From Anaerolineaceae bacterium (GTDB taxonomy: Bacteria > Chloroflexota > Anaerolineae > Anaerolineales > Anaerolineaceae): a stretch of DNA of 32,298 bases. Below are positions 25,508-30,016 of the stretch, one piece after another. A program made the translations under genes and the position numbers. The stretch is from contig JAGOVY010000008.1 in assembly GCA_018060515.1 (NCBI GenBank), forward strand, positions 1 through 32,298, written 5' to 3'. Each line of letters opens with the position of its first letter. Position 1 is the first letter of the stretch. The notes below the pieces were generated by a model. That model had not been told where the DNA came from. It did not search any database and saw nothing but the letters and a program-made list of their open reading frames with translations.

Positions 25508-26464
25508 TCAAAGATGAAGGCGGAGTTGCAGTAACGACGGGAATGAAAATCGAGGGATATTGGATAGGCGATAAGGCTTTTTTTGGATGATGGCCTGCGC
25601 TGCGTTGATTCCACTTTGAATGGCAGGTCCGATGCCTTCACCCATATCAAGGGTGGATAAACCGAGTGCGTCACCAATGAGCATGGCGTTGCCGACCCTA
25701 AGCATAGGAGAGCGGGCACGCAAATAATATGAATACCCGACCGGTTGATAACTTCGCTCGCGTACCAGACCATAACGCTCTAATTTTTCTTCAAGTATTT
25801 TCCAATGATACTTAAGGGTTTGATTGTTTTCCTTTAATCTGGCAGCAGCTCCGCCTACGCCAACATTAACCACACCATCATTCTTGGGGAAGTACCAGGC
25901 GTATCCGGGAAGTCCATCCTGCAGGAACCATAAATGGCAGCGATCGCTTGCGCCTGCATATGAGAATTCTTCTTCTTGGGCAATAATCAAAGTGCCGTGT
26001 TGGCTTGGTTCACTATCGGTAAACAAGGCACGCTTTACCGGGCAATGCGTACCGCCGGCTCCGATGAGGTAACGCGCCTGGTATTTTCCGTCAACAAGGT
26101 AAAACCCGCCTTCCTCACGGATTTCTGCTACAAGGTGTTGGAGCACCTGCTCTTTAACTCGATCGATAAGCCAGGCATCAAATTCGACACGACGAATGGC
26201 GTGCTGAAGGGTAGGCAGCTCGAATCGCACCTGTTTGATTTCGATAGTAAACCTGTGAAAGGTACTAAAATTTCCCGAATATGCTGCAGGGTCAAGTTGA
26301 ACATTGTGCATCACTTGCGGTGTAATCCAACCTGCACAGGTTTTTGAACGCGGAAACGTCGCCTTTTCCAATAATAGAAAATCAACCCCGTGTTTTTTCA
26401 ACTCCCAGGCGCAGCTTGCTCCGGCAGGTCCGCCACCAACAATAATCACATCAGTGTTGATCAT
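25508..26464 (-). CDS. FAD-dependent oxidoreductase, geranylgeranyl-reductase-like
   Basis: 318 residues. A Rossmann dinucleotide motif opens the protein (DVIIVGGGPAGASCAWEL, GxGxxG type). CAGWITPQV matches the variant second motif of geranylgeranyl reductases, ARYLIGAGGTHCPVKR is the second FAD contact, and RVGNAMLIGDALGLSTLDMGEGI is the conserved GD motif for the ribityl chain. The central beta-sheet (PGYAWYFPKNDGVVNVGVGG) is characteristic of this family, which reduces isoprenoid C=C bonds in chlorophyll side chains and archaeal lipids. It is shorter at the C-terminus than usual (about 318 against 380-400). It begins 5 bases after the cfa stop with no ribosome site, so it is translationally coupled to cfa. 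Confidence 0.88.
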   Translation of the reverse strand: MINTDVIIVGGGPAGASCAWELKKHGVDFLLLEKATFPRSKTCAGWITPQVMHNVQLDPAAYSGNFSTFHRFTIEIKQVRFELPTLQHAIRRVEFDAWLIDRVKEQVLQHLVAEIREEGGFYLVDGKYQARYLIGAGGTHCPVKRALFTDSEPSQHGTLIIAQEEEFSYAGASDRCHLWFLQDGLPGYAWYFPKNDGVVNVGVGGAAARLKENNQTLKYHWKILEEKLERYGLVRERSYQPVGYSYYLRARSPMLRVGNAMLIGDALGLSTLDMGEGIGPAIQSGINAAQAIIQKKPYRLSNIPRFSFPSLLQLRLHL

Positions 26465-26469
26465 TTGAT

Positions 26470-27585
26470 TTAACTAAACCGGCAATCAGGCTGTGGGTTG
26501 CCCTGGTGGGTGAAAACAATCTGCCACAACTGTTGTGAACGAGAGCGGAAGGCGCCTGCGCTGCTGAGAAGGTAGTATCGCCACATTCGGTAAAAAACGT
26601 TTCCATATTTTGTTTTCAGGTCTGGCCATGCTTTTTCAAAGTTGTCAGCCCAGGCCATTAATGTTGAATCGTAGAATGGTCCAAAGTTGTGCCAGTCCTC
26701 CATCACGAAAAGACCCTCCATCGATTTGCCAAGCTGACTGATTGATGGAAGTACGCCGTTTGGAAAAATATATCGGTCTGACCAGGGTTCACCCGTAGTG
26801 ATGGTTTTATTGCTGCCGATGGTGTGTACTAATGCGATACCGCCTGGTTTAAGGCAGCGATCAACAACCTCCATGTAGGTTCGATAATTTTTGTACCCCA
26901 CATGTTCCATCACGCCAATCGACACCACAGCGTCGAATCTGCCCGTGATCTCGCGGTAATCCTGCAGACGCAGCTCAACCGGCAATCCTTTGCAGAGCTC
27001 CATCCCCAGCGCAACCTGTTCTTTTGAAACCGTCAAGCCTAATACTACAGCGCCATACTTCTCGGCGGCGTATTTGGCAAAGCTGCCCCAGCCGCACCCA
27101 AGTTCAAGGATGCGCATCCCCTCATGAACACCGATCTTGCGGCAAACCAAGTCTAATTTTGCTTCTTGGGCATAATCCAGGTTATCGGTATTTTTCCAAT
27201 AGGCGCAAGTATATACCATGCGTTTATCGAGCATTGCCTGATAGAGGTCGTTACCCAGATCATAGTGTTTAATCCCTACTTCGAAGGCACGGCTTTTGGA
27301 TTGCCGGTTGAAGAGTCTGGCCTGGAAGGCTTGAACAATAAAACGTGATTCATGCAAGATTTTTTTGTCTAATTGTGCAAGCAAAGCACGTGAGATAAGT
27401 TGGTCAATCGCATCACAATCCCACCAACCTTCCATATAAGACTCACCAAGCCCTAAAGACGCATCCTTCACCAGGCAGTCAAAGAAAGCCGGGTTGTGCA
27501 CGCGGATATCCCAAGGGTTGGAGCCATTCACTTCAATTTCGGCCAGGCTGAGAAGCTCTCGGATGAAAGACTCGGAATTTGACAT
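26470..27585 (-). CDS. cfa: Cyclopropane-fatty-acyl-phospholipid synthase
   Basis: 371 residues from the ATG at 27585, 5 bases after AAGGAG; the open frame begins 15 bases earlier with GTG inside the ribosome site. It matches the E. coli enzyme along its length: FEVGIKHYDLGNDLYQ, MVYTCAYWKNTDNLDYAQ (Cys127), the SAM-binding ILELGCGWGSF, SIGVMEHVG (Glu227), HTIGSNKT (His254) and WHNFGPFYDSTLMAW (Tyr305). The late active-site-region Cys of the E. coli enzyme (AGAFR segment) is Ser here. It adds a methylene from SAM to cis-unsaturated acyl chains; close relatives add a methyl or methylene branch instead. First gene of the cfa/FAD-reductase pair. TTGCTC and AAATAT 17 bases apart upstream are a weak promoter match. 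Confidence 0.95.
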   Translation of the reverse strand: MSNSESFIRELLSLAEIEVNGSNPWDIRVHNPAFFDCLVKDASLGLGESYMEGWWDCDAIDQLISRALLAQLDKKILHESRFIVQAFQARLFNRQSKSRAFEVGIKHYDLGNDLYQAMLDKRMVYTCAYWKNTDNLDYAQEAKLDLVCRKIGVHEGMRILELGCGWGSFAKYAAEKYGAVVLGLTVSKEQVALGMELCKGLPVELRLQDYREITGRFDAVVSIGVMEHVGYKNYRTYMEVVDRCLKPGGIALVHTIGSNKTITTGEPWSDRYIFPNGVLPSISQLGKSMEGLFVMEDWHNFGPFYDSTLMAWADNFEKAWPDLKTKYGNVFYRMWRYYLLSSAGAFRSRSQQLWQIVFTHQGNPQPDCRFS

Positions 27586-27760
27586 GTCATCTCCTTTCAC
27601 CTATATTTATGAAAACCCCCAAAACGAGCAACAGTAACGAAGTCTGATAAATCGGGGTTAAAATAATGTGTACAATGAAAAGAAGTACTATTGTAATAAT
27701 CGAAAAATTGGTTGACCAGATTTTTCGGCATTCGTGAACAGGCAGGATGGGAGAAGACTG

Positions 27761-28687
27761 ATGCGTTTGAATGAACCCCTACAACATGGTGACGAGACAG
27801 CGGTACAAGAATTATCTGAATCTCTGATGAATGAGTTGGTAGGTGCTGTTGGTTTACCGAAAACAGATCTGACTCGCTCTATCATGCGCTTTCTTGCCGG
27901 CAAACCCGCGACTTTTCTGGCGAGGTTTGGCGTGACTTTTGATCGCATCGTCGTTGAGCAAGGGCTGCCGGCTGCATGCGAATGGGGATTAAGTTTTTTC
28001 TGCAACCCTGCAGAATTACGCATTGAAGATGAAATCCCGCAAAAAGGCCCATTACTCATCGCGGCAACTCACCCTGGCGCCTATGATGTGTTGTTGTACA
28101 CTGCGACCATTAAACGCAAAGATATCCGCTGGATCGCCACTGAAATCCCGTTTCTGCAATTGCTACCCAAAGTAAGCAATCACATCTTTTATGTTGATCG
28201 GGTAGATTTGTCCAGCCGCGCAAGAGCTTTACGCGATATTGTCGAACACCTGAAATCAGGCGGGGCGATGATATATCTCATCTCAGGGCATCGTGACCCA
28301 GACCCGGCGAATTTTGCAGGTGCTGAAAGCGGTATGGATAACCTCCTGCCAGTTTACGACTTATTTTTTAATAAAGTACCAGATTTGAAAGTCCAGCCTG
28401 CTTTGGCCTCAGGAATTGTTACAAAGCGATGGAGCAACCATCTCATCACAAAAATCCGGCGCGACCAAATTGACCGGCAAAGGTTGGCTGAATTCGGACA
28501 AGTCATCACCCAGTTATTAAACCCAGGTAAGCTATTGGTTACAACTGCTGTTTCATTTGGCAAAGCGGTTAGCCGTGATGAACTGTTACAAATGAACCCG
28601 GGGTTGACGACTCATGAAGCGATGGTTCAGATGTGTAAAGAGTTGTTACGCAATCATGCCCGTCACTTTGGATTTCAATTGCGCTGA
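27761..28687 (+). CDS. PlsC-like acyltransferase
   Basis: 309 residues. The acyltransferase signature HX4D is seen in AATHPGAYDVLLY, followed by a typical glycerol-phosphate acyltransferase layout: KRKDIRWIATEIPFLQLLPK, FYVDRVDLSSRARALRDIV, and SGHRDPDPAN in place of the usual FPEGTRS. The loss of the PEGT core is unusual and could mean a different acyl acceptor. There is no transmembrane segment of note. The ATG at 27761 is chosen because GGGAG precedes it by 7 bases; a GTG at 27734 extends the same frame. It is divergent from cfa and is followed 135 bases later by the acetate kinase gene. It probably transfers acyl chains in lipid synthesis or remodelling; the exact substrate is unknown. 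Confidence 0.75.
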   Translation: MRLNEPLQHGDETAVQELSESLMNELVGAVGLPKTDLTRSIMRFLAGKPATFLARFGVTFDRIVVEQGLPAACEWGLSFFCNPAELRIEDEIPQKGPLLIAATHPGAYDVLLYTATIKRKDIRWIATEIPFLQLLPKVSNHIFYVDRVDLSSRARALRDIVEHLKSGGAMIYLISGHRDPDPANFAGAESGMDNLLPVYDLFFNKVPDLKVQPALASGIVTKRWSNHLITKIRRDQIDRQRLAEFGQVITQLLNPGKLLVTTAVSFGKAVSRDELLQMNPGLTTHEAMVQMCKELLRNHARHFGFQLR

Positions 28688-28822
28688 AAATCAGTAGAGT
28701 AAACACCATCAATCGCAGAAGCACGTCAAAGAGTAATGTATCAGGCAGCAGACGACACGATATCGCGGCGCCTACAGAGGTTAAATAGATCCAAAAATGA
28801 AACGATTCATCGAGGTCGCAGC

Positions 28823-30016
28823 ATGAACATTCTGACCTTAAACAGCGGCAGTTCATCATTGAGTTTTAAAGTTTATCAGCATGATGGTGAGGATAGCGGC
28901 ACAATACTTCTGTCAGGAAAGGCGCGCAATGTCGCAACGCGTACCCGGGCAGCTTCTTTCATCGAATGGACAGCTGGTACAGAGGTGACGATTAAATATT
29001 GTACCCTTACCAACCATCGCCTGGCTGCACAGGAAGTGCTCATTTTATTGGAAGAGTTGAACATCAAAGTGGATGCGATCGGGCACCGGTTCGTACATGG
29101 CGGCGACCTGTTTCACGCTTGTACGCGGGTGGATGACAGCAGCCTGCCCAGACTTCGCGATTGTCTTCCATTAGCGCCAATTCATAATCCCAATGCTTTC
29201 AGTATCATTGAAGCTTGTCTCGCAGCGCTGCCCTCCGCCGACCAATTCGTGGTTTTTGATACCGCATTTCACGCACGTATGCCCAAATATGCGCGCACCT
29301 ATGCCCTGCCTGAAGACCTGATGACGCGCTTTGGACTGTATAAATATGGTTTTCATGGGCTTTCTTACCAGTATGTCAGCGTAATGGCAGAACAGTATTT
29401 GAAAAAGCCGCTTGACGAGGTGAAATTGATCATGTGCCATCTGGGTACAGGCGGTTCAAGTGTGTGTGCCTTTGCTGAAGGGCGTTCGATCGCTACCTCG
29501 ATGGGCTATTCGCCCTTGGCTGGTCTAGTCATGTCCACGCGCTGCGGCGATATAGATGCAGAAGTTGCCCTTGAACTGGTGCGCCGTGGAATGAGTGCCG
29601 ACGAGGTGAGTCAAACGCTCAATCATAAATCAGGGCTGATAGGGTTGAGCGGCTATTCCTCCAACCTCGAAGAGGTGATTGCAGCCGCTGAAGAGGGAAA
29701 TGAGCGCTGCATATTAGCCTATGACGTGTACGTCGCCAGGCTGCAGCATTATCTGGGTGCATATACTTGGCAGTTTGGCGGGGCTGATGCAATTGTCTTT
29801 ACCGATGACATTGGCACCCACTCGTGGAAGCTGCGCGCGCGAGCGCTGTGCTCTGCCGCTGCTTTGGGTGTATTGTTAGACAAAGAAATGAATCGCAAAG
29901 CGCCAGCAGACCAAACCACCCTCATCAGCCTGCCTCAATCTGCTACAGCGGTTTTGGTGATACCAACAGATGAAGAAAAAATCATCGCAGAAGAAGTAAT
30001 CGCTTCTCTGCGATGA
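28823..30016 (+). CDS. Divergent acetate/propionate kinase-family protein
   Basis: 397 residues from the ATG at 28823 (GAGGT 8 bases upstream), the normal AckA length. The acetate and phosphate residues known from Methanosarcina AckA are kept: Asn7, Arg89 (IGHRFVHGG), His121 (LAPIHNP), Asp146 (FDTAFH), His178 (YGFHG), His206 (CHLG), Arg240 (STRCGDID) and Glu385 (PTDEE). The nucleotide site is not: CHLGNGSS has become CHLGTGGSS, with Asn replaced and one residue added. The SSD motif is SSN, and the ADENOSINE motif GIGEN reads DDIGTH. It may use another phosphoryl donor or be a non-catalytic paralogue. No phosphotransacetylase gene is adjacent. I leave the symbol empty because of the divergence. 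Confidence 0.85.
   Translation: MNILTLNSGSSSLSFKVYQHDGEDSGTILLSGKARNVATRTRAASFIEWTAGTEVTIKYCTLTNHRLAAQEVLILLEELNIKVDAIGHRFVHGGDLFHACTRVDDSSLPRLRDCLPLAPIHNPNAFSIIEACLAALPSADQFVVFDTAFHARMPKYARTYALPEDLMTRFGLYKYGFHGLSYQYVSVMAEQYLKKPLDEVKLIMCHLGTGGSSVCAFAEGRSIATSMGYSPLAGLVMSTRCGDIDAEVALELVRRGMSADEVSQTLNHKSGLIGLSGYSSNLEEVIAAAEEGNERCILAYDVYVARLQHYLGAYTWQFGGADAIVFTDDIGTHSWKLRARALCSAAALGVLLDKEMNRKAPADQTTLISLPQSATAVLVIPTDEEKIIAEEVIASLR

Follow-up and report, generated by a model that had tools for sequence, protein, structure and literature searches.

Entamoeba is the sole known source of a pyrophosphate (PPi)-dependent acetate kinase. This organism has neither phosphotransacetylase (Pta) nor phosphoketolase (XFP), and the origin of its acetyl phosphate has been an open question; no source was known until glyceraldehyde-3-phosphate dehydrogenase acting with acetaldehyde was proposed (PMC9983610). 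For bacteria, Dang and Ingram-Smith described in 2017 enzymes of four Anaerolineaceae isolates that carry the same loop insert as the E. histolytica enzyme (EhACK) together with an Asp-Asp pair, and considered them possible PPi-dependent acetate kinases or users of another substrate (PMC5517563), so the PPi idea for this family is already in print. A PPi-dependent enzyme of the ribokinase family has also been assayed from Levilinea saccharolytica, a member of the Chloroflexi (PMC5931981). Here we analyze an acetate kinase gene (PF00871; 28823..30016, + strand) in a 32,298-nucleotide stretch of contig JAGOVY010000008.1 from an Anaerolineaceae bacterium, hereafter the window. The window kinase shares its family, the extra Gly and the Asp-Asp pair with the four isolate enzymes, which we compared by their published description, and we consider it a further member of this predicted group.

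Our analysis suggests that the window kinase is probably a nucleotide-independent, EhACK-type (EC 2.7.2.12-like) acetyl-phosphate:phosphate phosphotransferase forming acetate and PPi, an assignment made by analogy with EhACK, and we think it very likely that ATP is not used. Asn7, Arg89, His121, Asp146, His178, His206, Arg240 and Glu384/Glu385, which correspond to the catalytic set Asn7, Arg91, His123, Asp148, His180, His208, Arg241 and Glu384 in M. thermophila numbering, are all present and are invariant across 24 relatives, bearing out the claim of the original prediction that the acetate/phosphate machinery is complete. The acetate pocket is lined by four residues, V, I, F and P, compared with V, L, F and P in M. 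thermophila, and EhACK matches the window kinase except for a Thr at the last position. Retention of this pocket makes acetate the likely substrate acid and lends no support to the earlier suggestion that the enzyme might act on another acyl phosphate.

In contrast to the M. thermophila enzyme (1g99/1tuy) and AckA, with which the window kinase shares the fold, the eight catalytic residues and the acetate pocket, its nucleotide site is rewritten at Lys14, Asn211, Gly239, Asp283, Arg285, Gly331, Glu334 and Asn335 and in the length of PHOSPHATE2. PHOSPHATE1 reads GSSSLS (28847..28864), with Ser14 for Lys14; PHOSPHATE2 reads CHLGTGGSS (29435..29461), with an extra Gly that is the same insert as EhACK Gly203 (PMC5517563); LOOP4 reads SSNLE (29657..29671), with Asn for Asp283 and Glu for Arg285; and ADENOSINE reads FTDDIGTHSW (29798..29827), with Asp for Gly331, Thr for Glu334 and a further Asp at position 330 (all + strand). 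Three of these changes had been noticed correctly before, namely CHLGTGGSS, SSN and the replacement of GIGEN by DDIGTH (more exactly, A/G-G-I-G-E-N by D-D-I-G-T-H), to which we add the replacement of Lys14 by Ser, of Arg285 by Glu and, in LOOP3, of Gly239 by Ser.

Comparison with 45 canonical proteins, 24 bacterial PPi-type proteins (the window kinase among them) and EhACK revealed how consistently these positions divide. Position 14 is Lys in 44 of the 45 canonical proteins and Arg in the other one, whereas Lys is absent from all 24 bacterial PPi-type proteins and EhACK; Gly331 and Glu334 are both kept in 45/45 canonical proteins and in 0/25 of the others; and the extra PHOSPHATE2 Gly, Thr211, Ser239 and Asp330 are common to all 25. 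Thus, where ATP-type enzymes (EC 2.7.2.1) have Gly331/Glu334 and Lys14/Asp283, the window kinase has Asp/Thr and Ser/Asn, and it possesses the extra Gly and the Asp at ADENOSINE position 330 that mark the EhACK type (EC 2.7.2.12).

The similarity to EhACK extends beyond these motifs. EhACK (PDB 4h0o) was the best match among solved structures (301 bits versus 275 for M. thermophila), as it was in a profile-based structure search (474 versus 430 for the next best). In a tree built with the motif columns removed, the 24 bacterial PPi-type proteins and EhACK formed one clade apart from the 45 canonical proteins (support 100/100). On this sequence comparison we regard common descent of the bacterial clade with EhACK as firm, and the link to the Entamoeba enzyme that had been raised from the motifs is now strongly supported by the closest solved relative, the shared Gly, the shared loss of Lys14, Gly331 and Glu334, and the single clade. 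EhACK grouped on the side of the proteins from genomes G026 and G479 (support 96/86), and the window kinase fell in the other subclade (n = 18). We did not take this nesting as proof of transfer from Anaerolineaceae, since a bacterial group without EhACK was not rejected by an approximately unbiased (AU) test (p 0.315), which leaves the direction of transfer open.

LOOP4 separates the two subclades. EhACK, the six Entamoeba-side bacterial proteins and 45/45 canonical proteins retain Asp283, whereas the position is Asn or Ser in 18/18 proteins of the window's subclade, from which Arg285 has likewise been lost; EhACK keeps the equivalents of both. This loss is new relative to the earlier description of Anaerolineaceae enzymes. 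Because EhACK loses kcat when the matching pair is changed, the phosphoryl partner is probably bound differently in the window's subclade than in EhACK.

The variant is neither a chance event nor a sequencing error, since 23 more proteins, at 44-63% identity, show the same set of changes, and since pairs of close relatives with unsaturated synonymous divergence (dS) gave ratios of nonsynonymous to synonymous substitution (dN/dS) of about 0.05-0.08, indicating purifying selection and therefore an old, maintained enzyme that has not decayed. The CHLGTGGSS pattern occurred in 27 of 147 Anaerolineaceae genomes. Among 396 genomes sampled across the class, one true copy was found outside the family (G648), and we dismissed the other matches to the pattern elsewhere in the class as chance.

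Analysis of potential metabolic partners revealed an enzyme inventory resembling that of Entamoeba, with neither Pta nor XFP found and with ADP-forming acetyl-CoA synthetase (ACD), pyruvate phosphate dikinase (PPDK) and a PPi-type phosphofructokinase (PFK) in the same genome. Searches of 17 sampled carrier genomes, including the source of the window (G000), turned up no Pta, PduL or XFP in 16; the exception, G017, has a canonical ackA as well, beside a pta fragment. The absence of Pta is family-wide, not peculiar to genomes with a PPi-type kinase. A PF01515 match in the genome, scoring 22 bits alone and 25 with its neighbors, was rejected as Pta because it looks like PlsX, and the short XFP matches (18-35 bits) resemble transketolase-type proteins. 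Within the order, canonical ackA genes do have a supplier, with XFP adjacent in G037, PduL in G046 and Pta in G055.

The ACD of G000 is the fused form (contig C159). The ACD gene adjoins the PPi-type kinase gene in G026 and shares a cluster with it in G019 and G479 (L074:5782-7986, +; L073:119-2260, +; L189:13422-14000, -); these represent three genera, which are not independent cases because the cluster is shared. ACD forms acetyl phosphate as an intermediate that stays bound to the enzyme, and it might supply the kinase. On the side of PPi use, G000 encodes a PFK with the residues GGDDT and PKTMDND, which we take to be of the PPi type, and a PPDK split over two contigs. Membrane pyrophosphatase (PF03030) was present in 51 of 61 genomes searched and was not found in G000 or in the same-genus genomes G005, G007, G009, G011, G012 and G014, some of which are incomplete.

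We propose that acetyl phosphate would bind in the unchanged acetate/phosphate site while the adenosine space would be taken up by the extended PHOSPHATE2 loop together with the bulky Asp-Asp in ADENOSINE, so that inorganic phosphate (Pi), or PPi in reverse, may sit at the usual place of the outer ATP phosphates. The net reaction would be acetyl phosphate + Pi -> acetate + PPi; PPi-type PFK and PPDK would consume the PPi, and acetyl phosphate would be drawn from a non-classical source such as ACD or an aldehyde-oxidizing side reaction. In this scheme we infer the use of PPi, the direction of the reaction and the acetyl-phosphate source.

Several observations weigh against this assignment. Where EhACK blocks the pocket with Gln323-Met324, the window kinase has Asp329-Ile330, in which Gly is replaced by another bulky residue, and it has Asn281/Glu283 at the Asp272/Arg274 salt bridge of EhACK LOOP4, a pair whose alteration in addition to Q323G-M324I lowers kcat 2,500-5,000-fold (PMC5517563). 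An AlphaFold2 model of the window kinase showed the acetate kinase fold (mean predicted local distance difference test score, pLDDT, 88) and matched ATP enzymes and EhACK about equally, with no poorer a match to the ATP enzymes; because scores are alike across acetate kinases, we rejected fold comparison as a test of the donor, which the predicted fold cannot decide. Moreover, many Anaerolineaceae yielded no PF00871-type gene, suggesting that the kinase is dispensable in the family, no acetyl-phosphate source was identified in the genome, and the literature searched held no assay of any member of the bacterial clade.

Loss of both Asp283 and Arg285 throughout the window's subclade, when EhACK keeps both, would fit an acetate kinase that has switched to a phosphoryl partner other than ATP or PPi, such as polyphosphate, a phospho-protein or a small phosphorylated metabolite, with the LOOP4 changes marking the switch; Dang and Ingram-Smith also allowed that the Anaerolineaceae enzymes depend on neither (PMC5517563). 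However, the extra Gly and all remaining PPi-type marks are common to EhACK, and no neighboring gene points to another partner, so we judge such a switch unlikely. Continued dependence on ATP (or GTP), with a pocket that is unusual but open, appears very improbable to us: although in overall fold the model fits ATP enzymes no worse than EhACK and Ile330 of the Gly-Ile pair is retained, Gly331, Lys14, Asp283 and Glu334, invariant or nearly so in the 45 canonical proteins, are all replaced, and the G331Q-I332M change in M. thermophila lowers kcat about 50- to >100-fold (PMC5517563). It is similarly doubtful that the same chemistry runs in reverse, from PPi and acetate to acetyl phosphate, for PPi salvage or acetyl-phosphate supply. 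EhACK strongly prefers formation of acetate and PPi, and no enzyme that would consume acetyl phosphate, for example Pta, turned up, although the failure to find a classical acetyl-phosphate maker, or a membrane pyrophosphatase in G000, would suit that direction.

Relatives on the Entamoeba side carry an additional feature. In G008, G026 and G479 an acetate-kinase pseudoenzyme gene (297-347 residues) lies directly downstream of the PPi-type kinase gene, the gene is also present in G002 (288 residues), on a separate contig, and as a fragment at a contig end in G016 (L074:9255-10286, +; L075:4879-5772, +; L189:5343-6386, -; L078:232-1098, +; fragment, L076:2928-3254, +). Arg91, His123, Asp148, His180, Arg241 and Glu384 are all replaced, with His180 changed to Asp in all four full copies. 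That an inactive copy has been kept next to a dimeric enzyme suggests that the two form a heterodimer in these relatives; it does not concern the window.

Combining these observations, one could envision an energy-conserving branch of Anaerolineaceae in which acetyl phosphate from ACD would pass to a nucleotide-free kinase whose PPi would drive glycolysis. The Entamoeba-side form would act with a dead partner subunit and an ancestor of this form would have been transferred to Entamoeba, while the window's subclade would represent a second type with LOOP4 fully rewritten; taken as a whole, this scenario is unlikely to be right in all its parts.

The additions to the 2017 prediction are the LOOP4 loss, the missing Pta, PduL and XFP, the clustering with ACD in three genera and the dead copy in the Entamoeba-side subclade. 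A bacterial clade that contains EhACK, lacks the same partner enzymes and is repeatedly linked to ACD genes provides natural variants for testing donor choice, origin and partner, and formation of PPi by these enzymes, if true, would help explain the origin and role of the odd Entamoeba enzyme. In practical terms, annotation as acetate kinase in Anaerolineaceae does not imply ATP formation.

The window kinase gene is an intact open reading frame of 397 codons plus stop, and its product scored 362 bits against TIGR00016 (cut-off 293) and 358 bits against PF00871 (cut-off 22). A ribosome-binding-like GAGG (28812..28815, +), read from the sequence, lies 7 bases before the ATG at 28823; a longer in-frame start at ATG 28736 is less likely because relatives begin at the equivalent of 28823. 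The original prediction called the protein a paralogue, which it is not in G000, as no second PF00871 gene was found in this 2.05-Mb, 97% complete genome.

Directly upstream on the same strand lies a gene for a PlsC-like acyltransferase (PF01553; 27734..28687, +). The neighbor is thus real, but the role in acyl-phosphate supply for lipids that had been read into it is not supported, and we rejected it as a functional partner because the pair is kept only in close same-genus genomes (the window, G004, G005 and G006). Across the window's subclade no neighboring gene is constant. The region 25508-28687 comprises lipid-type genes for a geranylgeranyl-reductase-family protein, a cyclopropane fatty acid synthase and the acyltransferase, in an order kept in G005 and G006.

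Other variants were observed among the Chloroflexota acetate kinase relatives. A subgroup of PPi-type kinases from genus g17 (L087, L088, L090 and L091) has GHRFVNGG (AHRFVNGG in L088) in place of GHRFVHGG, and its ADENOSINE motif reads FTDD[AG]GV[KR]F, with loss of the Trp. In L053 (G077:C16:54462-55625) and L172 (G139:C64:19427-20587) the GHR motif is GFK, with catalytic Arg91 replaced by Lys, and PHOSPHATE2 is CHLGGSSS. Finally, the canonical-looking L052, L169 and L171 have Gln for His208 (LQLGNG, LQLGAG and MQLGSG, respectively).
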